DNA of 64,000 bases from Alphaproteobacteria bacterium LSUCC0684 (GTDB lineage: Bacteria > Pseudomonadota > Alphaproteobacteria > Puniceispirillales > UBA1172). How positions within the stretch are numbered: position 1 is the first letter of the stretch; each line of letters begins with the position of its first letter. Made by a program: the position numbers and the translations under genes. Below, in pieces: positions 34,124-63,933 of this stretch. The notes under the pieces were generated by a model. It had not been told where the DNA came from. It worked only from the letters and a program-made list of their open reading frames with translations, and made no database searches. The DNA is taken from assembly GCA_041228335.1 (NCBI GenBank), contig CP166130.1:2070638-2134637 (forward strand). Direction: 5' to 3'.

Positions 34124-35464
34124 TCACCTGCCCATCAGGCGGTCGTCAAACGGATACCGGGTGAGGTTTTCATACCCGTCCTCAGTGATCAGCACCTGAT
34201 CTTCAAGCTTGATGGAAAACTCCCCGCCCTCGCGGCTGACCAGCGCCTCGACGCAGAGCACCATCCCGGGCTTGAGCTCATGATCAAACGCGCCGTCGAC
34301 GAACTGGTCGGGATAGGCGATCAGCGGCCATTCATCGCACAGCCCGACGCCATGGAACTTGCAGGAATATTTCTGCTTCTGGTAGAGCGCCGGCAGATGA
34401 TGCCCGTTATGGGTCAGCTCGGTGAACGTCACCCCGGGTTTCAGCATCTCCATATTCGTCTGGATATGCTCATGGGCAAGGCGGTAGTCTTCGATCATCT
34501 CGGCGCTCGGCGCGCCGTCGCCCAGAAACCAGGTCCGGGAGATATCCGAACAGATGCCATAGCACCCCACCAGATCGGTATCAAAGGCCAGAATCTCGTT
34601 ATTCTGCACCACCCGCGGGCCACATTCCTGAAACCACGGATTGGTGCGCGGGCCGGAGGCCAGAAGGCGGGTTTCGATCCACTCACCCCCACGGCGGATA
34701 TTTTCCGCATGCAGATAGGACCAGATATCGTCTTCGGTCATGCCCGGGGCAGCGGCGGCTTCCATGGCATGGACCGATTGCTCGCAGGCATGCATCGCGC
34801 AGCGCATGGCAAGGATATCATCCTTGCCCTTGATGACGCGGGCATGCTCCATCACGACTTCGCCTTCTTCAACCGTCAGCCCTTCGGCTTCAAGGGCGCG
34901 GAGCCCGGCAACCATGATTTTGTCCACGGCAAGACGGGTGTTTTCCCCTGCCCGCTCACGGAGGAGCGAACGTATCTCGGCGGCGAAATCACGGGCGGCG
35001 ACGGCGGTCCTGTCGCCATTGGCGAAATAGAACATCGACGCGCCGGAGCGGACTTCCTGCACCAGCGGGTTATGCGCCGCTAGAAAGGGAGAGTTCTTGT
35101 AATCCCACAGAATCATATATCCGTCCGCCGTGACCAGACAGGCGCGGAACGGGTTATGGGTGTTCCAGAGCTGCATATTGGTAGAATCGGTGGCATAGCG
35201 GATATTGAGGGGGTCGAACAGCAGCACGCCAGCCAGGTCATGCTGATGCAGCTGGGCGAGAATACGGTCAAGATGGAACTGCCGCAGGCCCACAAGGTCA
35301 GGTGCGGTCAGCCCGGCTTCTTCCCATTCCGCAAAGGCAAGAGGCGTCGGCCCGATCTCGATACGGTCATTATCCCGCGGGGATCCATCGGGCATGAGGG
35401 CCGCCGAGGCCGCCGGACGGGAGGGATCAATCTTGCGCTGGTCGCGCATATGGATGGAATTCAT
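34124..35464 (-). CDS. dddP: DMSP lyase DddP (M24 peptidase fold)
   Basis: A 446-residue M24-fold protein. Counting from this start, D295, D297, D307, H371, E406 and E421, the six metal-site positions known for Ruegeria lacuscaerulensis DddP, are all the correct residue, and the catalytic D377 is present in HGVGLCDEWP. Other DddP stretches include DPLNIRYATDSTNMQLWN, WDYKNSPF, RGGEWIETRLLASGPRTNPW and a terminal YENLTRYPFD. The enzyme splits DMSP into acrylate and dimethyl sulfide. Ordinary Xaa-Pro aminopeptidase is therefore rejected. The gene is monocistronic-looking, convergent with hpt, and lies 26 kb from dmdA. Confidence 0.94.
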   Translation of the reverse strand: MNSIHMRDQRKIDPSRPAASAALMPDGSPRDNDRIEIGPTPLAFAEWEEAGLTAPDLVGLRQFHLDRILAQLHQHDLAGVLLFDPLNIRYATDSTNMQLWNTHNPFRACLVTADGYMILWDYKNSPFLAAHNPLVQEVRSGASMFYFANGDRTAVAARDFAAEIRSLLRERAGENTRLAVDKIMVAGLRALEAEGLTVEEGEVVMEHARVIKGKDDILAMRCAMHACEQSVHAMEAAAAPGMTEDDIWSYLHAENIRRGGEWIETRLLASGPRTNPWFQECGPRVVQNNEILAFDTDLVGCYGICSDISRTWFLGDGAPSAEMIEDYRLAHEHIQTNMEMLKPGVTFTELTHNGHHLPALYQKQKYSCKFHGVGLCDEWPLIAYPDQFVDGAFDHELKPGMVLCVEALVSREGGEFSIKLEDQVLITEDGYENLTRYPFDDRLMGR

Positions 35465-35541: not shown

Positions 35542-36747
35542 TTACTGAAGTTCGGTCTCGATATCAGCTTCCGCCTCCAGGGTCCGATGTACCGGGCATT
35601 TATTGGCAATATCAAAAAGATAGTCCCGCTGGCTTTCATCAAGCGCCCCTTCAAGCACCAGCCTGCGACTGAAGATATCTTTTTTCTCCTTGCCTTCGCC
35701 TTCCTTGCGGTGGAGCACCTCAACCTCGCAATTTTCGAGCGGCCATCCCTTGCGCTGGGCAACCAGCCTGATCGTGATGGCGGTACATGCCCCAAGCCCG
35801 GCCTTGAGAAAATCATAAGGCGCAGGTCCGCTGTCAAGCCCGCCGGTTATGCGCGCGGGTTCATCGACGCGAAGCCGATGCGTGCCGATGCTGATATCAT
35901 GGGCGAAAATCCCGTCCGGACTCGACCGGACAAGAACAGCCTCCGGATCTGATCCGGCGCGCCCCGCTTCATCGCCCCCCAGTTCATCACCAAGGCAGCG
36001 CGAGGCCCAGGCCGCGATCACTTTTGCCGCAAAGGCGCTGTCCTTTTTGCGGGTCAGCAGGTGATCCGCCGTATCAAGGGAGACGAACGATTTCGGATGT
36101 CTTGCCGCGGCGAATATCCGGGTTGCGTTGTCGATCTTCACGATCTCGTCCTCCGGCGCATGCATCACCAGAAGATCGGCCTGAAGCCGGGCAAGAACAG
36201 CCGGAGCATCCTGTGCCAGCAGATCATCGACAAAAGACTTGCCGATCCGGATGGGACGCCCGCCGATCACAACCTCGGCAATGCCGATAGCCTCAATCGC
36301 CGGGATCGCATCTGCGAAAAGATGGCGGACATGCGCCGGGTCCGCCGGTGCTCCAATGGTTGCGACGCCGCGGACCGACGGAACTGAAGCCGCCGCGGCC
36401 AGCACCGCCGCGCCGCCCAGGCTATGGCCGATCAAGAGATCAGGCGCCGCGTAATTATCCTCAAGCCACGCCGCCGCCGCCACGATATCATCGATATTGG
36501 CGGTAAATCCGGTATCTTCAAAACTTCCTTCGGATTGCCCGAGGCCGGTAAAATCAAGGCGCAGGACGCCAATCCCCTCCATGGCCAGATACTGGGCAAC
36601 GCGGGCAGCGGCGAGGCTGTCCTTGGAACAGGTGAAACAATGGGCAAAAACCGCCCAGCCGCGATGCGCACCAAGGGCGTAGTCGAGCCGGGCTGCCAGG
36701 GGAACACCCTCCCGGTTCATGAAGGTGATGGTTTCGGTCTTGGGCAT
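35542..36747 (-). CDS. Fused alpha/beta hydrolase and OsmC-family protein
   Basis: A 401-residue two-domain protein. Residues 1-250 are an alpha/beta hydrolase with the nucleophile motif IGHSLGGAAVLAAA, an acidic residue in MHAPEDEIV and a late His in SLDTADHLL. Residues 270-401 are an OsmC-like domain with a PYDFLKAGLGACTAITIRL segment holding the peroxidatic-type Cys and a second Cys in NKCPVHRTL. This fusion is a recognised architecture; OsmC proteins reduce organic hydroperoxides. Substrate of the hydrolase half is unknown. ATG 36747 (MPKTETITF) is preferred over the longer frame to 36900. Confidence 0.86.
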   Translation of the reverse strand: MPKTETITFMNREGVPLAARLDYALGAHRGWAVFAHCFTCSKDSLAAARVAQYLAMEGIGVLRLDFTGLGQSEGSFEDTGFTANIDDIVAAAAWLEDNYAAPDLLIGHSLGGAAVLAAAASVPSVRGVATIGAPADPAHVRHLFADAIPAIEAIGIAEVVIGGRPIRIGKSFVDDLLAQDAPAVLARLQADLLVMHAPEDEIVKIDNATRIFAAARHPKSFVSLDTADHLLTRKKDSAFAAKVIAAWASRCLGDELGGDEAGRAGSDPEAVLVRSSPDGIFAHDISIGTHRLRVDEPARITGGLDSGPAPYDFLKAGLGACTAITIRLVAQRKGWPLENCEVEVLHRKEGEGKEKKDIFSRRLVLEGALDESQRDYLFDIANKCPVHRTLEAEADIETELQ

Positions 36748-36892
36748 GGCGGCCTCCTTCGTTTCTCCCTCTATGGTAGCAGAATGGGGGCCGGGTGCAA
36801 AAAAAATCACCCCGCCCGGGTGCGGGCTTGCCAGATGGGGTTCTTTTGCGCCATGCTCAGGGGCAGACCGCAAAGAGGTTATGGAGAGACGA

Positions 36893-38017
36893 ATGACCAA
36901 ATTGATCGACGCCAGAACAGAGGACGGCGCTGTTCATCTTACCTTTGACGATGCCACATCATCCGGCTTTCCCTTTTTCTGGTTGCGTGACCACGCCCAG
37001 GATGACGAAAGCTGGGATCATCGCAGTCACCAGCGGGAATTTTTCACCGCCGCGGCGGATCCGGATATCAGCCCGTCCGACGTGCAGCTCGATGCCGATG
37101 GCAGCAATCTGATGATGTCCTGGCCTGATCAGCGCGGACCGATCTCTTATCCCGCAAGTTTTCTCTACCGCTTTGCCCGGGCCGAAACCGATCTTTCCGC
37201 CCCGCGCCATATCTGGGATGCCGGCACGGCTGACCGCAAGGGCCTGCTCGTTCCATGGCAGGAGATCACGAGCAATTCCTCCCTCACCGATGATGGCCGG
37301 AAAAGGCTTCTGGAAACCATCCATACCCATGGCTTTGCCGTGCTGGACAATGTCCCTGTCGGGCAGGAAAGCGTCGCCGCGGTTGCCCATGCCATCGGCT
37401 ATGTGCGTGAGACGATCTTCGGGGGGCTCTGGGAATTTGCCGCCAATGAAGGCATGGATGACAGCGCCTATACGCCGAAAGAGCTCCGCCCCCATACCGA
37501 TGGCACCTACAGCCATGATGCGCCGGGGCTTCAGCTCCTGCTCTGCTGCGAATACGATGCCGAAGGCGGGGATTCAATCATGGTGGACGGGTTCGCCATC
37601 TATCGGTGGATGCAGGAAAACGCCCCTGAGGCGCTGGCGGATCTCAGCCGCATCAATGTTCCGGGGCAGTATATTGGCGACGGGGTTGTTCTGCGCGCGG
37701 AACGACCTGTTTTCCGGCACGATGCGCGCGGCGAGCTGGCGCAGGTGACCTTCAACAACTATGACCGGGCTCCGTTCCGGCTCAATGATGCGGATATGGC
37801 CGGGTTCTACGCCGCCAGCCGTCTCTTTGACCAGAAAGCCAACGATCCCGACATGCAGTGGCGTCAGGTCCTTTCCCCCGGCCAGATGCTGATCTTTGAC
37901 AACTGGCGGATCCTTCATGGCCGCGCCGCGTTCCGCGGTCACCGCAAGATGGCAGGCTGCTACCTCAACCGCGAGGATTATGAGAGCAGCCTGCGCCGGG
38001 TCGGCCTTAGAAGTTAA
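36893..38017 (+). CDS. Gamma-butyrobetaine dioxygenase-like Fe(II)/2-oxoglutarate enzyme
   Basis: A 374-residue TauD/BBOX-type oxygenase. The N-terminus has the short BBOX-like domain FPFFWLRDHAQDDESWD; the catalytic domain supplies the HxD pair in PHTDGTYSHD and the distal His in FDNWRILHGRAAF, followed by an Arg for 2-oxoglutarate. A GGAGAG site lies just upstream of ATG 36893. Family members hydroxylate gamma-butyrobetaine or trimethyllysine; the natural substrate here could be another betaine. Its 3' end overlaps the convergent TRAP permease gene by 11 bases. Confidence 0.8.
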   Translation: MTKLIDARTEDGAVHLTFDDATSSGFPFFWLRDHAQDDESWDHRSHQREFFTAAADPDISPSDVQLDADGSNLMMSWPDQRGPISYPASFLYRFARAETDLSAPRHIWDAGTADRKGLLVPWQEITSNSSLTDDGRKRLLETIHTHGFAVLDNVPVGQESVAAVAHAIGYVRETIFGGLWEFAANEGMDDSAYTPKELRPHTDGTYSHDAPGLQLLLCCEYDAEGGDSIMVDGFAIYRWMQENAPEALADLSRINVPGQYIGDGVVLRAERPVFRHDARGELAQVTFNNYDRAPFRLNDADMAGFYAASRLFDQKANDPDMQWRQVLSPGQMLIFDNWRILHGRAAFRGHRKMAGCYLNREDYESSLRRVGLRS

Positions 38018-40658
38018 GCGATATATTCCGGTGCTGCGCAAGACATCCTGAAATCGCCGACGCCTGCTCCTTGGTCAGGCGGTCCTGCTGTCTCAGCCCG
38101 ATATTGTTCCGGATATCCGCTTCAAACCTTTCGAGTTCGGGCAGCATCGCCACGCCAGCCTGACGTCCCTTGAGATCCTTCTCAAATTCTTTCATCGCCG
38201 AGCTCAGCGACTTTCTGGCTTTCGCGGGCTTGGGCTTGCGCTTTCTGATGTCTTTTGTTGCCCCCTCGAGTTTGGAGACGATCTCATCCGTCCCCGCAAC
38301 TTCGCGCAGCGCCGATATCGCATCCTTGATCGCGTCACGCGCCTCGTCATGGGGGCCGTCATCCGTGATCAGGGCAGGCAGCGCCTCCAGCATGGGCCGC
38401 AGGCCGGCCAGCGCATCGGCGTCCTTCAGGGTGGTAATGACATCAATAAGTTCACTATAGGCATCGTCTACCCCGCGCCGGTAGCTGTTCTGCTCCTTTT
38501 CCAGCGCTTTCTGCAAGGTTTTGTAGGATTTGTTGACGCTTTTCCATTCCGCCGGGATCTGCGCTTTCATCTCTTCGACCTCGATTTCGAGCGCGTCGAT
38601 CTTCGCCTGCATGGCCGCCTTGTCTTCTTCGCTGTCGAGCCCGCGGATATCCTTGCCAAGGGTGGTGATCTCACGGTTCAGGCGGCGGATGTCACGCTCG
38701 ATGTCCCGGACCATTCCATGCACGGGGCGATATTCAACCGATGCCCGCTCAAGTTCAGCTTCAGCCGCACGGATCGCCTCGATCTGGCCGAAGACACCGT
38801 TGACAACGTCAACCGTTCCATTGATCTGGCGGCGCACCCCGGCTGGCAATGCGTCGAGATCAAGCGCCGTGACCCTGGCGGCCATGGCTTCGATTTCCGC
38901 CCGTTCTTCGGTGTAATAGGAAAAGAGATAATCCTCAAGACATGCCTGCAGCCGCGGGTTTTTCGGTGGCGGCGCGGTCTCGCTGGTCAGGTAGGTGCGG
39001 ACCGGCAGAAAATTCACCAGCGGCGGGTAGAAACCGACAATGGTCAGCCCCAGCAGCTGGAGCGCGATAAACGGCACCACACCTTTATAGATATCGAGGG
39101 TGCGGACCGCGCTCGATGCCACCCCGCGCAGGTAGAAGAGCGCAAAGCCGAAAGGCGGGGTCAGGAAGGATGTCTGGATGTTGAGGCCGATCATCACCCC
39201 GAGCCATACCGCCGTCACGTTCGATGATGGATCTGCCAGCAGAATGGGGGAGACAATCGGCACCACCACCACGGCAATCTCGATGAAATCGAGGAAGAAC
39301 CCGAGCAGGAAAATCACCAGCATGACGACGATGAACTGAGACCAGAATCCCCCCGGCAGGCCGGTGAGGAAATGCTTGACGATCTCCTCCCCGCCAAAGC
39401 CGCGGAAGGCGGCGGTCAGCATCGCGGCACCAAGAAGGATGATAAAGACCATCGAGGTGGTCTTGGCGCTTTCCACCATCACCCCGTTGAGCGTGTCCTC
39501 GATCTTGAAGGTGCGCCAGAACGACCAGCCCACGGACACCACAAATCCGGCCACCGCAACAATAGCGAGGAAGATACCGAGTTTATCGACGCCGGTCTCG
39601 ATCGTCCGGATATTGAGGTTGAACATGTTCAAAAGAACAAGGATCGCAACCAGTGAGACAATGGAAAGAATGGCCGGGTAATAGGCGTCTTTCTCGCCTT
39701 CACGCAACCGGTATCCTGCCATGATTGTCGCGCCGATGGCGCCGATGGCGCCGGCCTGGTTGACGGTGGCAATACCGGCAATGATTGAACCCAGCACGGC
39801 AAAGATCAGCACCAGCGGCGGCACCAGCGCAAGCATCACCTTGGTAAGAAACGCCCGCTCGAGGAGTTTGCCGTCATAAGGCACAGCCGGCGCGGTGGAC
39901 GGTTTGATCAGCGCCGAGATCAGGATATAGGCCATGTAAAGCCCGACCAGCACAAGCCCGGGCAGAAACGCGCCGAGGAACATGTCGCCAGCGCTGGTGG
40001 ACACAATATCGAGGCTTGACGGCATCGAAAATTCGCCCGTGGCTTCCTTATAGAGCGACTTGCGTTCCGAGGCGGCCTGATCGGCAGCGCTGGCCAGCTG
40101 GTCTGCCAGAATGATCAGCACGATCGATGGCGGAATGATCTGACCAAGCGTGCCCGAGGCACAGATCGTCCCCGTGGCAAGAGGTTTTGAGTAATTGTTG
40201 CGCAGCATGGCCGGCAGGGAGATCAGCCCCATCGCGACAACCGTCGCCCCGACAATCCCCGTGGTAGCGGCAAGAAGCGCCCCCACAAAGACAACCGAAA
40301 TCCCGAGCCCGCCCGGTATCGGCCCGAAGAGCTGGGCCATGGTGACCAGAAGATCTTCCGCAATCCGAGAGCGTTGCAGCATGATACCCATGAAGATGAA
40401 AAGCGGAATGGCAATCAGCGTATCTCGCTCCACCTCCCAGTAAATGCCCCTGAAATTGGTGACCCCTGCGGTGAGCCATTCCCAGGGTCCGTCCTGGGTG
40501 AAATACGCACCCGAATCCCCGGCAAACATGTATCCCGCCGCACCGGCGAGCAGGATCGTCAGGATCGCCGAGCCCGGCAGGGCAAAGGCCACCGGATAGC
40601 CCGAGCCGAGGGCATACATCATGGTCAGAAAAAGAATGGCCAGAAATAGAAGTTCCAC
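38007..40658 (-). CDS. TRAP transporter large permease (DctM) with long C-terminal extension
   Basis: An 883-residue protein. Roughly the first 557 residues are a DctM membrane domain with many helices and the family segments MGIMLQRSRIAEDLL, ATTGIVGATVVAMGLISLPAML and QIIPPSIVLIILADQLA. The last 326 residues (38007-38987) are soluble and strongly helical, with heptad-like runs such as IRRLNREITTLGKDIRGL and IDALEIEVEEMKAQI. Usual DctM proteins have about 430 residues and no such tail. It is followed upstream by dctQ after three bases. Substrate is set by the adjacent TakP-like binding protein. The tail's role is unknown. Confidence 0.88.
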   Translation of the reverse strand: MELLFLAILFLTMMYALGSGYPVAFALPGSAILTILLAGAAGYMFAGDSGAYFTQDGPWEWLTAGVTNFRGIYWEVERDTLIAIPLFIFMGIMLQRSRIAEDLLVTMAQLFGPIPGGLGISVVFVGALLAATTGIVGATVVAMGLISLPAMLRNNYSKPLATGTICASGTLGQIIPPSIVLIILADQLASAADQAASERKSLYKEATGEFSMPSSLDIVSTSAGDMFLGAFLPGLVLVGLYMAYILISALIKPSTAPAVPYDGKLLERAFLTKVMLALVPPLVLIFAVLGSIIAGIATVNQAGAIGAIGATIMAGYRLREGEKDAYYPAILSIVSLVAILVLLNMFNLNIRTIETGVDKLGIFLAIVAVAGFVVSVGWSFWRTFKIEDTLNGVMVESAKTTSMVFIILLGAAMLTAAFRGFGGEEIVKHFLTGLPGGFWSQFIVVMLVIFLLGFFLDFIEIAVVVVPIVSPILLADPSSNVTAVWLGVMIGLNIQTSFLTPPFGFALFYLRGVASSAVRTLDIYKGVVPFIALQLLGLTIVGFYPPLVNFLPVRTYLTSETAPPPKNPRLQACLEDYLFSYYTEERAEIEAMAARVTALDLDALPAGVRRQINGTVDVVNGVFGQIEAIRAAEAELERASVEYRPVHGMVRDIERDIRRLNREITTLGKDIRGLDSEEDKAAMQAKIDALEIEVEEMKAQIPAEWKSVNKSYKTLQKALEKEQNSYRRGVDDAYSELIDVITTLKDADALAGLRPMLEALPALITDDGPHDEARDAIKDAISALREVAGTDEIVSKLEGATKDIRKRKPKPAKARKSLSSAMKEFEKDLKGRQAGVAMLPELERFEADIRNNIGLRQQDRLTKEQASAISGCLAQHRNISLNF

Positions 40659-40661
40659 GGC

Positions 40662-41669
40662 TTAGGCCCCCTCTGGATCGGCAGCGGCGTCAGGGTCAGT
40701 CCTGTTCATGACCGAAAGGGCATGAAAGAAGTAACTGGTGAACTGCGCCAGCATCGACAAGGCGAAGACAAGCAGGAAGGATGCCATCAGGTATTTGACA
40801 TACATGCCGAACCCGCTCATCGAGGTTTCAAAATTCAGCATCGGGCTGTTGATCAGACTTGATTTCCCGGCAAGCCCGCGCGTCAGGATCATCCAGCAGA
40901 GCGGGATGCCGAAGAACAGCGTTCCGGTGGCATTGACCCAGGCTTTCGTGCGTTCACGGAAAGCGGCGAAAATCACGTCCACCCGGACATGGCCTTCTTC
41001 TTTCAGCGTATAGGCACTGGCAAAAAGAAACAGCGACGCATACCAGAACCGGACCAGATCACCCATGAAAGTCTGCTCATAGGCGAAGATGAAGCGCGCC
41101 AGCACAATCAGCAGCTCGGCAATCACGACAAGGAAAATCAGCCAGACGACCGAAACCGATTTGTCCCGGAGCCCGATCAGCACCGCCAGCCCCATCAGAG
41201 GCAGATGAATATGCATCCCCCGCCAGGAGGAAAGGCCTATCTTGGTGGCGAGATCCTTGTCGAACATCACGGTATGGAGATCCTCCACCCGGAGAAAGGA
41301 AAGCACCGCATCCGCCACCCCGATCAGCAGCACCGACCAGAAGGCAATGCGGATGATAGCCGAAGACAACGCATCCATCCGGATTGCATCCGCCTCAAGC
41401 GATCCGCGACGCAAAGCATAATATCCGGCGCCGGCAACAGCACCTGCCGCCAGCAGAACCTGAAGCCAGCCGGCACCACTTGCACCACCTTTGGGTGCGT
41501 CAAGGCCAAACAGCCCGGCGCTGTCAAGTGTCGGCGCGATCCCGGGCAATCCAAAGGAATAGGTCAGAAAGTTGTTCACAACAAAAGCAAGAGCCAGCCC
41601 GACGCTGGCAATTCCGGCAAACCGGCAAATCAGAACAACGAGGGGGTTTAGGAACTGACGGTCACTCAT
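40662..41669 (-). CDS. TRAP transporter small permease (DctQ)
   Basis: A 335-residue protein, about twice the usual DctQ length. The last 180 residues hold the DctQ core with FVRFWYASLFLFASAYTLKEEGHVRVDVIFAAFRE, the EExHVRxD motif and a closing helical pair. The N-terminal part adds extra helices and a Gly/Ala-rich loop. It couples the large permease to the binding protein in the membrane. Translation starts 25 bases after the T-run of a terminator-like hairpin that separates it from the binding protein gene. The next gene follows after three bases. Confidence 0.86.
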   Translation of the reverse strand: MSDRQFLNPLVVLICRFAGIASVGLALAFVVNNFLTYSFGLPGIAPTLDSAGLFGLDAPKGGASGAGWLQVLLAAGAVAGAGYYALRRGSLEADAIRMDALSSAIIRIAFWSVLLIGVADAVLSFLRVEDLHTVMFDKDLATKIGLSSWRGMHIHLPLMGLAVLIGLRDKSVSVVWLIFLVVIAELLIVLARFIFAYEQTFMGDLVRFWYASLFLFASAYTLKEEGHVRVDVIFAAFRERTKAWVNATGTLFFGIPLCWMILTRGLAGKSSLINSPMLNFETSMSGFGMYVKYLMASFLLVFALSMLAQFTSYFFHALSVMNRTDPDAAADPEGA

Positions 41670-41732: not shown

Positions 41733-42821
41733 TTAGCCTTCAAGCACCGCGTTACGCTTGAGGACGTATTCCACGTCGTTGAGCTGCTGGTATTCACCAA
41801 CGGTCTTGCGTGCAGCAACCATGGATTCGTGGATGCGGCGAGCAAGAGCGGAATGCTCGACCACTTCGGCATAGACTTCCGCCGACCCGCGACCAAAGGC
41901 TTCATAGACGTCTTCGTTGAATTCACGCACAACGACACCCTGATCATTGACCAGACGCTCGAGCGCCGCGCCGTTCTTGGCGTTGTACTCGGCCATGATG
42001 TTGTCGTTCTCTGCCTGGGCGACAGCCGTGATCAGGTTTTGATCGGTCTCGGAGAGCGTGCCCCAGAACGATGCGTTGAAGCCGGCGGCCAGCTGGGATG
42101 CCGGCTCATGCATGCCAGGATAGTAGTAGTATTTGGCAGCTTCATAGAACTTCATCGCTTCGTCGTTCCATGGGCCCACCCATTCGGTTGCCTCGATGGC
42201 GCCGGAAACCAGGTTTTCGTAGATCTGGCCACCCGGCAGGGAGACAGGGGAGGCACCAAGCTTGGCCATGACGTCACCACCAAGACCCGGGATACGCATC
42301 TTCAGGCCCTTGATATCGTCGGCGGAGTTGATTTCCTTGTTGAACCAGCCGCCCCACTGAACGCCGGTATTGCCGCAGGCCAGACACTTGAGGCCAAACT
42401 CGCCAGCCAGTTCGTCCCAGAGCTGCTGACCACCCATCCAGTGAATCCAGGCCGTCATTTCCACGTAGCTGAGCCCGAATGGCACGGCGGTGAAATAGGC
42501 CCAGCCCGGATGCTTGCCTTTCCAGTAATAGTCCGCGGCATGGTAAGCTTGCGCGTTGCCGGATGCGACTTCATCGAAACTGTCGAAAGCCCCGACACGT
42601 TCGCCCGCGGCATAGTAGGTTACCTGGATGCGGCCATCGGATACATCCCCAAGACGGGCAGCAAAACGCTGGGCGCCTGTCCCGAGACCCGGGAAGTCGC
42701 GTGGCCAGGTGGATACCATGGCGATCTCGATGCGATCCTGGGCAATAGCAGGCGTAGCAAGCGCGGTAGCTGTTGCCACCCCGCCAATACCAGCCTTAGT
42801 CATAAAGTCACGACGTTTCAT
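41733..42821 (-). CDS. TRAP substrate-binding protein (DctP/TakP-like)
   Basis: A 362-residue exported binding protein. The N-terminus carries a Tat-like signal (RRDFMTKAGIGG) with cleavage after ATPAIAQ. The mature start is RIEIAMVSTWPRDFPGLGTG, and NTGVQWGGWFNKEI plus LKMRIPGLGGDVMAKLG are segments of the TakP group, which binds 2-oxo acids such as pyruvate. The conserved Arg in MRIPG would contact the carboxylate. It is the first gene of the dctP-dctQ-dctM operon. The ligand is inferred from family, not proven. Confidence 0.88.
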   Translation of the reverse strand: MKRRDFMTKAGIGGVATATALATPAIAQDRIEIAMVSTWPRDFPGLGTGAQRFAARLGDVSDGRIQVTYYAAGERVGAFDSFDEVASGNAQAYHAADYYWKGKHPGWAYFTAVPFGLSYVEMTAWIHWMGGQQLWDELAGEFGLKCLACGNTGVQWGGWFNKEINSADDIKGLKMRIPGLGGDVMAKLGASPVSLPGGQIYENLVSGAIEATEWVGPWNDEAMKFYEAAKYYYYPGMHEPASQLAAGFNASFWGTLSETDQNLITAVAQAENDNIMAEYNAKNGAALERLVNDQGVVVREFNEDVYEAFGRGSAEVYAEVVEHSALARRIHESMVAARKTVGEYQQLNDVEYVLKRNAVLEG

Positions 42822-58064: not shown

Positions 58065-58084
58065 TAACTGATTTGGTGGTGAGG

Positions 58085-59680
58085 GTGGAATTTGACTTTC
58101 TGGTCATAGGCGCGGGATCGGCTGGATGCGTGGTCGCCAACCGGCTTTCGGCAAACCCGGATTACCGGGTCGGCCTCATTGAAGCCGGCGGCCCGGACAC
58201 CTCGCCCTGGATTCATATTCCCGTGGGATATTTCAAGACCATGGGCAATCCGGCCACCGACTGGTGCTACCAGACCGAACCTGACCCCGGCCTTAACGGC
58301 CGCTCGCTGAACTGGCCGCGTGGCAAGGTGCTTGGCGGCAGCAGCTCGATCAACGGGCTTCTCTATGTTCGCGGCCAGCCGCAGGATTACGATCACTGGC
58401 GCCAGCTGGGCAATACCGGCTGGGGATGGGATGATGTCCTGCCGCATTTCAGGCAGATTGAAAAATGGGAGCGGGGAGAGAGCGCCGATCGCGGTGGCCA
58501 TGGCCCGCTGGAGGTCAGTGAAAACAGGCTGCGGCGTGAAATTGTCGATGCCTGGATGAAGGCGGCGGTAGAGGATGGCCATCCCTGGACCGATGATTAC
58601 AACAGCGGCAATCAGGAAGGGGTCAGCAATTACCAGATGACCATGAGAGCTGGCCTTCGCTGCAGCAGCGCGGTGGCGTTTCTGAAACCTGCACGCCGCC
58701 GCCCCAATCTTGAGGTTTTCACCCATGCCCTCACGGAGCGTATCCGGGTTGAGGGCAATCGCGCCATCGGCGTCACGATCCGGCGGGGCAATGATGTCCA
58801 GGAACTCACCGCCCGGCGGGAGATCATCCTCTCTGCCGGCGCCATCAACTCCCCGCAGATCCTGATGCTGTCGGGCATCGGCCCTGCCGGGACATTAAAG
58901 AAACACGGGATACCCGTCATCCGGGCCCTGCCCGGGGTCGGCCGGAATCTTCAGGATCACCTGCAGGCACGGCCGGTGTTCAAATGTTCGGCCAGCACCA
59001 TCAATACCGAAACCCGGAACATCTTTCAGAAAGTCGGCATCGCCATCCAGTTTGCCTTCACCCGGTCAGGTCCGATGACCATGGCCGCCAGCCTTGGCGC
59101 CGCGTTTCTGAAAACGCATCCAGAGAGGCATACCCCCGATATTCAGTTTCATATCCAGCCGTTCAGCGCTGACAGCCCCGGTGAAGGAACACATCCCTTT
59201 TCGGCCTTCACCGCTTCGGTCACCCAGCTTCGTCCCGAAAGCACGGGTCATATCACGCTTAAATCGGGCCGGGCGGGCGATTACCCCGCCATCCACCCGA
59301 ACTATCTTGCGACCAAGACCGATTGCGACACCCTCGTTGAAGGGATCAAGATGGCGCGGCGGATTTCCGGGCTCGATCCGGTCCGGTCCCTGATCACGGC
59401 AGAACATGCCCCGGGCGACGCGGTGGCCGCGGATGATGATGCGGCCATCCTGGACTGGGCCCGCAACACCGCCACCACCATCTATCATCCGACCGGCACC
59501 TGCAAGATGGGCCGCGATGATATGGCGGTGGTGGATGAACGGCTCCGGGTTCACGGCATCACGGGGCTGCGGGTTGCCGATGCCTCGATCATGCCGACCA
59601 TCACGTCGGGCAACACCAACGCCCCGGCGATCATGATCGGCGCCAAACTCTCGTCGATGGTACTGGAGGACGCGGGATGA
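58085..59680 (+). CDS. GMC-family oxidoreductase (choline dehydrogenase-like)
   Basis: A flavoprotein of about 531 residues. The FAD motif is FLVIGAGSAGCVVANRLS, the GMC signature is PRGKVLGGSSSINGLLYVRG, and the C-terminal HPTGTCKMG and TSGNTNAPAIMIG hold the catalytic His and Asn. It oxidises an alcohol, possibly choline-like or another polyol. There is no ATG; GTG 58085 follows a GGTGG site, and TTG 58073 or GTG 58079 are alternatives. Its stop overlaps the TerC gene by four bases. Divergent from IclR. Confidence 0.87.
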   Translation: MEFDFLVIGAGSAGCVVANRLSANPDYRVGLIEAGGPDTSPWIHIPVGYFKTMGNPATDWCYQTEPDPGLNGRSLNWPRGKVLGGSSSINGLLYVRGQPQDYDHWRQLGNTGWGWDDVLPHFRQIEKWERGESADRGGHGPLEVSENRLRREIVDAWMKAAVEDGHPWTDDYNSGNQEGVSNYQMTMRAGLRCSSAVAFLKPARRRPNLEVFTHALTERIRVEGNRAIGVTIRRGNDVQELTARREIILSAGAINSPQILMLSGIGPAGTLKKHGIPVIRALPGVGRNLQDHLQARPVFKCSASTINTETRNIFQKVGIAIQFAFTRSGPMTMAASLGAAFLKTHPERHTPDIQFHIQPFSADSPGEGTHPFSAFTASVTQLRPESTGHITLKSGRAGDYPAIHPNYLATKTDCDTLVEGIKMARRISGLDPVRSLITAEHAPGDAVAADDDAAILDWARNTATTIYHPTGTCKMGRDDMAVVDERLRVHGITGLRVADASIMPTITSGNTNAPAIMIGAKLSSMVLEDAG

Positions 59681-60318: not shown

Positions 60319-60496
60319 AGGAGCGCCGGACCATGGCCTGCAATAGGAATTGGGCAGATCGGGCAAAGCCGTGAACGGCCAGCCTGATCCCCGATAGAGT
60401 AGAGCGGAATTCGCATCAGGGCTGGAAGCCTTCACCAAACCTGATGACCGTTCAACAACCCAGAGAAGGCATGTGCAAATGACAGGGAGGATACTC

Positions 60497-61612
60497 ATGT
60501 CAAACCTAAATAAACTGCTCAGCGCAGCGGCGTCAGCCATCATTGGTCTGGCCATGCTCGCTGTACCAGCCCTGGTTCAGGCCAAGGAAGTCACGATCAG
60601 GGTTCAGTCGGTTATTCCAGCCGCAGCGGACGAAGTGACGATGCTCAATGAATTTGCCGCTGACGTCGCGGCCCTGACCAATGGCGAGGTGAAAATCGAG
60701 GTACTGCCAGCCGGGGCCGTTGTCGGCGTTCAGGAAACTCTTGACGCTGTTGATTCCGGCCTCATCGAAGGTGGTTTTGCCTGGACACATTACTGGTCCG
60801 GCAAGCATCCGGCAGCCATGCTGTTCGGCTCACCTGTTGCTGGCGCCGGTGTCGGGATCGACAATATCGCGTTTCTGTCCTGGTTCCAGTACGGCGGTGG
60901 CCGTGAGCTTTATGACGAGTTGTGGAGTGAAATGGGCGTGAACGTGAAGGGCTTCATGCTTCAGCCCGTCGGCCCGGAAGCGCTGGGCTGGTTCAAGGAG
61001 CCGATCAACTCAATGGAAGATTTCCGCAAGTATCGTTTCCGGACACCTCCGGGCATTCCCGGCCAGACCTACAAGGATATCGGTGTTGCATCGGTAGCCA
61101 TGGGTGGCGGGGATATCCTGCCTGCACTTGAAAAAGGCACGATCGATGCCGCTGAATGGTGCTGCCCGAAGCCGGATTCCGTCTTCGGTTTCCAGAAAGT
61201 CCTGAAGCATTACTATCTGCAGGGCCTCCATCAGGTGGTGGTGAACGCTGACCTCTACATTAACGGGGATGTGTACAACTCCCTCACCGATCACCAGAAA
61301 AAAGCTCTTGAAGTTGCCGCCAATGCGTCGCTGTCCAAGGCCATGTCCTACCGGATCTACGAGAACGGCAAGGCACTCAAGGACCTGACGGAAAATCACG
61401 GCGTCATCCTGCATGATACGCCGGCGGATTACTTCCCGGCCTACATGAATGCCGCCAAGGCATCGCTGGAAAAGAACGCCGCGGAAAACGCCTTCTTTGC
61501 CAAGGTCTGGCAGTCCCAGAAGGATTTTGCTGCCATCGCCGTCCCGTTCTGGGCCGGAGCACAGGCATCGAACGCCGCGCTGGGCAAGGCTTTTGCCGAT
61601 AGCGTGAAGTAA
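60497..61612 (+). CDS. TRAP substrate-binding protein (DctP-type)
   Basis: A 371-residue exported protein. Signal peptide: a basic start, AAASAIIGLAMLAVPALVQA, then mature KEVTIRVQSVIP. FRKYRFRTPPGIPG carries the carboxylate-binding Arg, and GGGDILPALEKGTIDAAEWCCP is typical of the DctP/TakP group. A GGGAGG site precedes ATG 60497. It is followed by a hairpin and then a fused permease gene. Ligand is unknown; a carboxylate or sulfonate is likely. Confidence 0.88.
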   Translation: MSNLNKLLSAAASAIIGLAMLAVPALVQAKEVTIRVQSVIPAAADEVTMLNEFAADVAALTNGEVKIEVLPAGAVVGVQETLDAVDSGLIEGGFAWTHYWSGKHPAAMLFGSPVAGAGVGIDNIAFLSWFQYGGGRELYDELWSEMGVNVKGFMLQPVGPEALGWFKEPINSMEDFRKYRFRTPPGIPGQTYKDIGVASVAMGGGDILPALEKGTIDAAEWCCPKPDSVFGFQKVLKHYYLQGLHQVVVNADLYINGDVYNSLTDHQKKALEVAANASLSKAMSYRIYENGKALKDLTENHGVILHDTPADYFPAYMNAAKASLEKNAAENAFFAKVWQSQKDFAAIAVPFWAGAQASNAALGKAFADSVK

Positions 61613-61621
61613 CATCACCAC

Positions 61622-61650
61622 CAGCAGGAGCGCCGCCGGTGCTCCTGCTG
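61622..61650 (+). other. Stem-loop between dctP and dctQM
   Basis: A perfect 10-bp stem CAGCAGGAGC / GCTCCTGCTG (61622-61631 and 61641-61650) with a 9-base loop. No T-run follows, so it is more likely an mRNA-protecting stem-loop than a terminator. It would favour binding-protein mRNA over permease mRNA. Confidence 0.65.
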
Positions 61651-61683
61651 ACCGAACACAAGCACAGGGCAGGGAGAACAGAC

Positions 61684-63933
61684 ATGGCTGCGGATGAACC
61701 GATCGGTGATCTTGACATTACCGATGAGCTGATTGCAGAAAGACGGGCAGACCAGCCCGGGCAAACACCGGAAGACATGCATCCCGTCGCGAGATTTCTC
61801 GTGGGAAATATTGATCTGCTCAATCACTGGGTCGGGAAACTGACCTGCCTGTTGCTGATCCCGGTTATTGCCGCCATGGTGTATGAAGTGGTGGCACGCA
61901 AAGTTTTCATTTCACCCACAACCTGGGCTTACGATACCTCGCGCATGTTCAGCGGCGCGATGTTCATGCTCGGGGCCGGGTACGCGCTGATGCGCGGGGT
62001 GCATATCCGGGCTGATTTCCTGTTCCGGAACTGGTCGCCGCGGACACAGGCGCTGGTGGATACAGCGCTCTATTTCCTGTTCTATTTTCCGGCCATGATC
62101 TTCTTCCTCAAGATTTCCACCGATTACACCCTCAAGGCCTGGCTGACCTGGGAACGGTCGATGGACACCACCTTGATGGCGCCGCTGGCACCGGCGCGGA
62201 CGGCCATGCCGCTTGGCGCGCTGTTTCTGCTGCTTCAGGGCATCGCCGAAACCCTGCGCTGCCTGCATGCGCTCGATGACAAGACACGTCGGCTGATCAC
62301 CCGCCTCATCCCTCTTTATGTCGTGGTCCTGCTGGTGATTTTCTCGAATACCTTTTATCCGGGCCTGATACCTTTTGTTGAGTTTGCTGATATTACGCTC
62401 AAGGGCGCAGGAGGCATCCCCGGTGAGTGGATCGGGGTCATCATGATCGCGGTGATGCTCCTGGCGATCTTTGTCGGCTTCCCCATCTCCTTTACCCTGA
62501 TCTTTCTTGCCTTTGTCTTCGGGGCCTGGGGTTTCAGCGGCAAACTGGTCTTCTACCTGCAGACGCTGCAGTTCAACAACGTGATGCTGGAACAGACACT
62601 GGCCGCCGTGCCGCTCTTTGTCTTCATGGGGATCATGATGGAACAGGCAGGGCTTATGGAACGGCTTTTCACCTCGGTGCAGCTGATGCTGTCGCGGACA
62701 CGCGGGGCGCTCTATCTTGCCGTGCTTTTTGTCTCGACCATCTTTGCCGCGGCCACCGGTATTGTCGGCGCCTCGGTCACCATTCTCGGGATCATGGCGG
62801 CCAAGACGATGAACCGTTCGGGCTATGATGTGCGGCTTGCGGCGGGGACAATCACCGCCGGCGGCACCCTCGGCATTCTCATCCCGCCCTCGATCATGCT
62901 GGTGGTGATGGGGCCGGTGCTTGAAGTGCCGGTGACCGATCTCTTCTCCGCTGCCATCATCCCCGGGATAATGCTGGCCTCGCTCTATGCCGGTTATGCG
63001 CTGCTGCGCTGCTGGCTCAACCCGTCGCTGGGCCCTATTCTTCCGGCCGAAGATCAGCCCAAGACTTCGAATCTCTACTGGCTTGAAGCCCTGCTGGTCA
63101 TCAGCTCGATCGTGATCCTTTTCACGCTGATGGTGCAGGCGCTCTCCGGCAATCTCGCGGGGCTGTTCCCGTTCTCGTCCTTCCTCTTGCCGCTGGGATG
63201 GGCCGGGATCATGTATGCCGCTTCCATCTGGGTGAAGAACGCACGGCCAGCGGGGTTCTTCTTCTCCGATCTCTGGCATGAATTCTTCATGGGTCTGGTG
63301 CCGCCATCGGCGCTGGTGGCGTTTGCGCTCGGCTCCATCCTCTTTGGCTGGGCGACGCCGACCGAAGGTGCGGGCTGCGGGGCATTTGGCGCGCTGGTGC
63401 TGTCGCTGGTCTACCGCAAGCTCAACCGCCAGCGGCTGTTTGATGCGCTGGTGAAAACCCTTGAAATCTCGGTGCTGATCCTGTTCCTTGTGGCGGCGTC
63501 CAATTTCTTCGGGGCGGTGTTCTCGCGCCTCGGAACGCCGATGATGCTGACGGAATTTCTCCTTTCATGGGAAATGTCGGCGACCCTGGTGCTGATCATC
63601 ATCATGGCCCTGATCTTCCTGTTGGGCTGGCCGCTGGAATGGGTGCCGATCGTGCTGATCATCGTGCCTATCCTGATCCCTGTTCTCATCAAACTCGATA
63701 TCAACCTGACCTGGTTCGGTATTCTGGTTGCGGTGAATCTGCAGACGGCCTGGCTCAGCCCGCCGGTGGCGTTATCGGCCTATTTCCTGAAAGGCGTGGT
63801 GCCCGAATGGGATCTGAAAGACATCTATATCGGCATGATGCAGTTCATGGTGATCCAGCTCATCGGGCTGACGCTGATCTTCATCTTCCCGGAAATCGCC
63901 CTGTGGCTGCCTGAATATATCTATGGCAAATAA
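61684..63933 (+). CDS. Fused TRAP permease (DctQ-DctM)
   Basis: A 749-residue protein. The first 240 residues form a DctQ-type small permease (four helices, with MLGAGYALMRGVHIRADFLF carrying the conserved R-x-D motif). The rest is a DctM domain with MGIMMEQAGLMERLFTSVQLML, ATGIVGASVTILGIMAAKTM and GILIPPSIMLVVMGPVLEVP. Fusion of the two is a known TRAP variant. A GGGAG site supports ATG 61684 over 61639. It completes the import system begun by the dctP gene. Confidence 0.9.
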   Translation: MAADEPIGDLDITDELIAERRADQPGQTPEDMHPVARFLVGNIDLLNHWVGKLTCLLLIPVIAAMVYEVVARKVFISPTTWAYDTSRMFSGAMFMLGAGYALMRGVHIRADFLFRNWSPRTQALVDTALYFLFYFPAMIFFLKISTDYTLKAWLTWERSMDTTLMAPLAPARTAMPLGALFLLLQGIAETLRCLHALDDKTRRLITRLIPLYVVVLLVIFSNTFYPGLIPFVEFADITLKGAGGIPGEWIGVIMIAVMLLAIFVGFPISFTLIFLAFVFGAWGFSGKLVFYLQTLQFNNVMLEQTLAAVPLFVFMGIMMEQAGLMERLFTSVQLMLSRTRGALYLAVLFVSTIFAAATGIVGASVTILGIMAAKTMNRSGYDVRLAAGTITAGGTLGILIPPSIMLVVMGPVLEVPVTDLFSAAIIPGIMLASLYAGYALLRCWLNPSLGPILPAEDQPKTSNLYWLEALLVISSIVILFTLMVQALSGNLAGLFPFSSFLLPLGWAGIMYAASIWVKNARPAGFFFSDLWHEFFMGLVPPSALVAFALGSILFGWATPTEGAGCGAFGALVLSLVYRKLNRQRLFDALVKTLEISVLILFLVAASNFFGAVFSRLGTPMMLTEFLLSWEMSATLVLIIIMALIFLLGWPLEWVPIVLIIVPILIPVLIKLDINLTWFGILVAVNLQTAWLSPPVALSAYFLKGVVPEWDLKDIYIGMMQFMVIQLIGLTLIFIFPEIALWLPEYIYGK

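Follow-up and report, generated by a model that had tools for sequence, protein, structure and literature searches.

A helical C-terminal domain on a large TRAP permease of TakP type in marine bacteria, a candidate periplasmic docking arm for its receptor

The third gene of a TRAP transporter operon in the alphaproteobacterium LSUCC0684 encodes a complete DctM-type permease whose chain continues into a helical C-terminal domain, and sequence comparison indicates that this domain is a single, old gain by one clade of permeases. As a protein family it is sharply delimited and absent from Pfam, and it can be recognized by two fixed cysteines, a PPPxNP linker and an HrDiSLxF terminus. The transporter is a TRAP system, already known as such; the arm is what is new. 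We tentatively propose, with somewhat less than even confidence in architecture and function together, that it is a periplasmic arm docking or retaining the receptor dimer.

In the window (the whole stretch of DNA analyzed, 64,000 nucleotides of contig CP166130.1), the permease gene (38007-40658, minus strand) is an 883-residue open reading frame with a GTG start and no internal stops, the last in an operon of order P-Q-M (Table 1). The product is clearly a DctM: Pfam DctM (PF06808) lies on residues 12-552 in three pieces (207.2 bits against a curated cut-off of 23.8), and a Foldseek search with the core matched 7qha_B (TMt 0.78, E 6.6e-8, ~18% identity), the top six matches all being TRAP QM or M structures. 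This assignment by Pfam and fold holds despite a TIGR00786 score (NCBIfam dctM subfamily) of 256.3 bits, below the curated cut-off of 268.45. AlphaFold2 modeled the whole protein at pLDDT 77.5 and pTM 0.62, with ~90 for the tail portion and moderate confidence in the core. The initial annotation had taken ~430 residues as the normal DctM length; the extra tail is real, but the core here is ~555 residues long, owing to additional transmembrane helices and loops in this subfamily. Two of the loop additions are specific to the tailed clade: at residues ~50-75, ~16 residues are missing from the tail-less sister family, and the addition at ~192-222 is much shorter or missing there. A profile count finds 11 DctM genes in the genome, and the window itself holds a second TRAP operon (60473-63930, plus strand) consisting of DctP and a 764-residue DctQ-DctM fusion without a tail.

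Table 1. Features of the tailed TRAP operon. Positions are those of the window; residues are those of the permease except in the DctQ row.
Feature	Position	Strand	Description
DctP receptor	41733..42821	-	Pfam DctP, twin-arginine (TAT) signal, TakP-like
DctQ	40662..41669	-	335 aa, ~150-residue N-terminal extension; Pfam DctQ at 187-309
DctM core	38991..40658	-	Residues 1-556; TRAP M fold plus two extra transmembrane helices at ~327-385
Clade-specific M addition 1	40434..40511	-	Within residues ~50-75, loop preceding TM3, periplasmic by homology
Clade-specific M addition 2	39993..40085	-	Within residues ~192-222, loop following TM5b, periplasmic by homology
C-terminal tail	38007..38990	-	Residues 557-883 plus stop; all-helical, predicted to fold independently, probably periplasmic
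Linker	38958..38990	-	Residues 557-567, LTSETAPPPKN; conserved
Cys573	38940..38942	-	Invariant in 89/89 aligned and in more divergent tails; proposed disulfide partner Cys872
Long helices	38424..38843	-	Residues 606-745: 68-residue helix, turn, return helices (AlphaFold2, heptad periodicity)
Dispensable segment	38172..38408	-	Residues ~751-829; missing from short-tailed members (803-838 aa)
Cys872	38043..38045	-	Invariant; distance to the C-terminus always 12 residues
C-terminal motif HRNISLNF	38010..38033	-	Residues 876-883; pLDDT ~45 despite high conservation

The tail (38007-38987, residues 558-883 plus the stop codon, 326 residues) is much less conserved than the core: in an alignment of 88 homologues and the window protein (89 sequences), mean identity to the latter was 75% for the core and ~36% for the tail. 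Conservation in the tail is concentrated at both ends, the middle being variable with a majority residue in ~35-50% per column. At its start stands an APPPxNPrLQxC motif that extends to residue 573, with PPP and NP invariant in the alignment, and at its end the pattern iGlRxQxrl...C...HrDiSLxF; majority-residue conservation reaches 0.86 for residues 876-883 versus 0.34-0.59 for residues 576-875, and the HRNISLNF C-terminus is possibly a docking peptide. All 89 tails contain two cysteines and no more, the first 10 residues past the first P of PPP, and both cysteine spacings are kept in 14 genome-search loci (window included) and in the most divergent members, while the third Cys of the window permease, outside the tail pair, is not conserved. 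A metal site formed by Cys573, Cys872, His876 and a His near 647 was considered and set aside: the last of these falls below 90% in the large alignment and sits in the middle of a long helix. Short tails, which measure 240 residues in one genus and also occur in one protein of another family, have lost ~751-829 and kept both cysteines; since these members are placed apart in the tree, shortening may have happened twice, separately.

AlphaFold2 predicts the tail alone to be an all-helical domain (pLDDT 93.2, pTM 0.84) with helices at 606-673, 677-700 and 705-745, smaller ones up to 805 and a last one at 811-850; a straight helix of 68 residues would, by arithmetic, measure ~100 angstroms. The coiled coil seen in the initial annotation is borne out in part. 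Heptad periodicity is significant in helices 606-673 (period 3.5, p=0.0005) and 705-745 (period 3.6, p=0.001) and not in 677-699 or 811-849, and residues 770-805 show strong periodicity at another period, 3.3; the tail is thus a helical domain with a coiled-coil-like first half, not a single unbroken coiled coil. That it is a genuine domain of no described function, as first claimed, agrees both with its conservation and confident fold and with the database searches. A Pfam scan of the window tail gave nothing above curated cut-offs past residue 552, and across the tailed family no common Pfam family emerged, two unrelated coiled-coil families each matching only 1 of 74 members. Searches of the PDB with the tail returned no significant sequence match and no fold match at E<=0.001. 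Resemblances to Phage_scaffold, Cytochrom_B562, Filament and the like all lay below curated Pfam cut-offs and resembled coiled-coil composition, and SMC- or ClyA-like folds (best Foldseek E 0.16, TM <0.27) were judged noise. No description of such a tail was found in the literature, though many subscription papers lay outside the search.

Full-length homologues carrying the tail were found at ~100 distinct loci, mostly in Alpha- and Gammaproteobacteria and including SAR11; in the sampled genomes the tail stood in every case on a long DctM-type frame, and no free-standing tail gene was seen. The tail is present in 11 of 12 genomes and all four genera of the taxonomic family. A scan of species genomes gave 80 loci, most aligning from residue 1 (or ~12-22) through 883 and nearly all in single frames of at least 866 residues. 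Among 289 alphaproteobacterial genomes the tail occurs in 25, always within frames of 838-960 residues, and among 299 Pseudomonadota genomes in seven, all Alphaproteobacteria within that sample; a search for the tail on plasmids yielded 140 related records, none reaching 80% query coverage. One metagenome record (locus L053, 5991-8640) carries the tailed permease in two frames, covering ~residues 1-436 and 438-809, probably through a sequence error of that record. Two sequences from metagenome bins labeled SAR324 and Binatia are placed among proteobacterial sequences in the tree, which binning error or transfer may explain.

Core searches were bimodal: matches at 62-76% identity were all tailed, and those at <=~53% whole-core identity were tail-less, with some partial matches of tail-less proteins, in the first part of the core, reaching 57%. 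All tailed permeases, with tails of 240-330 residues, group in a single clade (support 100/100) adjoining a tail-less TakM-like family. The most divergent tailed members are two sequences of the same class that share a family and the second copy in a genome that carries two, which is the earliest branch of the clade.

Comparison of neighborhoods across tailed loci showed that only P, Q and M recur, leaving P or Q as the most likely partner of the tail and offering no further hint of substrate. In the window, a gene for DMSP lyase DddP (34124-35464, minus strand; NF043017, 775.6 bits against a cut-off of 600) lies on the strand of the TRAP operon and downstream of it, a neighborhood not kept in other tailed loci. 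Also nearby are an alpha/beta hydrolase fused to an OsmC-like domain (35542-36813, minus strand), a gamma-butyrobetaine/trimethyllysine dioxygenase-like gene with TauD and GBBH-like N domains (36719-38017, plus strand), which is convergent with the permease gene and overlaps its stop by ~10 bases, and, farther away, a choline dehydrogenase-like GMC oxidoreductase (58073-59677, plus strand) scoring slightly under the NCBIfam PRK02106 cut-off. The N-terminal extension of DctQ has several hydrophobic stretches and is common to the tailed clade, whereas alignments to the sister-family Qs, most with frames of 183-221 residues, begin only at ~residue 137-176. DctP identity among tailed loci is 58-95%.

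Among solved structures, the window DctP is closest to TakP of Rhodobacter sphaeroides (2hzk; E 1.8e-72, residues 1-350), and the alignment runs into the long C-terminal helix that is swapped in the TakP dimer (PMC1839085), so that the receptor here may likewise be a dimer. By DctP homology, the ligands would be small alpha-keto or hydroxy acids; the SAR11 receptor literature held no identified counterpart. The core is ~45-53% identical to a tail-less family that is likewise paired with TakP-like receptors. Those relatives end with the core, whereas here the chain goes on for 326 residues, the M loops are extended and DctQ is longer. Judged by the tail-less sisters, an M subunit of TakP type would end after TM12, and this one does not. 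SiaQM (PpSiaQM 7qha; HiSiaQM 7qe5/8thi) shares the M fold, and the elevator and C-out topology are taken from it, but it has neither the tail nor the extra transmembrane pair and is only ~18% identical to the core here. SiaP-type receptors are monomeric. In annotation, related proteins without a tail (Marinovum algicola) bear the name of the FcbT3/mannitol-chloroaromatic class of large TRAP permeases.

The M subunit of PpSiaQM has 12 transmembrane segments in an N-out/C-out arrangement, and its transport domain includes TM10-12 (PMC9971032). The model suggests that the core here has these helices and an additional pair near 327-385, which would keep the parity, and predicted loops carry ~10 K/R to 6 D/E on the inside and ~7 to 11 on the outside. 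Given the C-out topology of the solved M, the pairing of the extra helices and this charge distribution, the tail is most likely periplasmic, and by the same analogy it would be attached to the moving transport domain. The two fixed cysteines, in an oxidizing compartment, suggest a Cys573-Cys872 disulfide that would staple the two ends of the tail.

These considerations shape the mechanism that we propose as the most likely of those weighed. In this TakP-type transporter, the chain of the large permease would exit the membrane past TM12, on the periplasmic side of the moving elevator domain, and run through the conserved Pro-rich linker into a helical domain with a 68-residue helix and return helices, its base stapled by the disulfide between the invariant end cysteines. 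Beside the substrate entrance, such an arm could dock or retain dimeric DctP, so that the receptor would be locally concentrated and correctly oriented to pass on a small carboxylate, for example, an alpha-keto acid; at ~100 angstroms, an arm attached where TM12 ends in the periplasm would be long enough to extend along a TakP-like dimer. For the regulatory role in the initial annotation, an oligomerization or sensing domain controlling uptake, we found no specific support, and a periplasmic location on the transport domain, the invariant cysteines and the receptor-binding context would together point to receptor docking more than to regulation.

Docking is further supported by the confident tail fold and by the longer M loops and longer DctQ that co-occur with it in the clade. 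In SiaQM, TM3a contacts the receptor (PMC9971032), and one clade-specific M loop adjoins TM3. TakP is a helix-swapped dimer, for which its authors proposed in 2007 a permanently membrane-bound dimer with the tether unnamed (PMC1839085), and a modeled HiSiaPQM complex has room for a TakP-like dimer, whose second monomer then points upwards (PMC9352664). Against docking, the variable middle of the tail is as compatible with a spacer as with a binding surface, and the tail-less sisters use TakP-like receptors without an arm, which is thus unnecessary for receptor use.

Alternatively, and as one of two main rival readings, hairpins from two or more permeases may pair in the periplasm and hold the transporters in dimers or clusters, consistent with heptad periodicity in both main helices and with the dimeric state of VcINDY-type relatives (PMC9352664). 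We consider this unlikely: a single copy of the tail is predicted to fold well by itself, and in TRAP transporters Q sits where the second INDY protomer would, making the complex a monomeric elevator (PMC9352664). The other main rival, which also seems improbable, is that the tail is a structural brace, packing against the longer DctQ and the added M loops to stabilize a larger stator with no direct DctP contact. The tail, the loop additions and the Q extension do appear jointly in the clade and seldom or never in the sister family, and the best-conserved parts of the tail are its linker and extreme C-terminus; however, an exit from TM12, in the moving domain by homology, would make a poor anchor for a rigid brace, and a 68-residue helix would mostly project off the membrane.

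That same length, together with the variable middle, would suit an arm extending to the peptidoglycan or outer membrane to position the transporter, a highly improbable role considering that no peptidoglycan-binding Pfam domain was found and that short-tailed members have lost a part other than the long helices. There is a very slim chance that reversible opening of a Cys573-Cys872 bond gates uptake, since the absolute conservation of the pair is equaled in structural disulfides, a CxxC-type motif is absent, and no redox partner recurs in the neighborhoods. A cytoplasmic regulatory or sensing tail, for which the charged, soluble composition might speak, is scarcely plausible against the C-out topology of the M subunit (PMC9971032), the charge distribution and the invariant cysteine pair. 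Finally, a frameshift or assembly error joining two genes is effectively excluded by ~100 independent full-length tailed homologues, spread over dozens of independent assemblies, and by the failure to see a free tail gene.

The literature describes as unclear how the membrane subunits work together with dimeric receptors of the TakP/lactate type (PMC5812351). For a membrane-bound receptor dimer, the conserved, probably periplasmic arm is a concrete, removable candidate tether. In its strongest and rather doubtful form, receptor docking would define a TRAP subclass of marine bacteria, including SAR11 and SAR116, in which a disulfide-stapled periplasmic arm on the elevator domain keeps dimeric DctP captive at the gate; DctP would then no longer diffuse freely in the periplasm. 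The domain is hidden in current annotation behind a generic permease name, and since its clade extends to SAR11 and other abundant marine heterotrophs, it may bear on the uptake of small carboxylates in the ocean.
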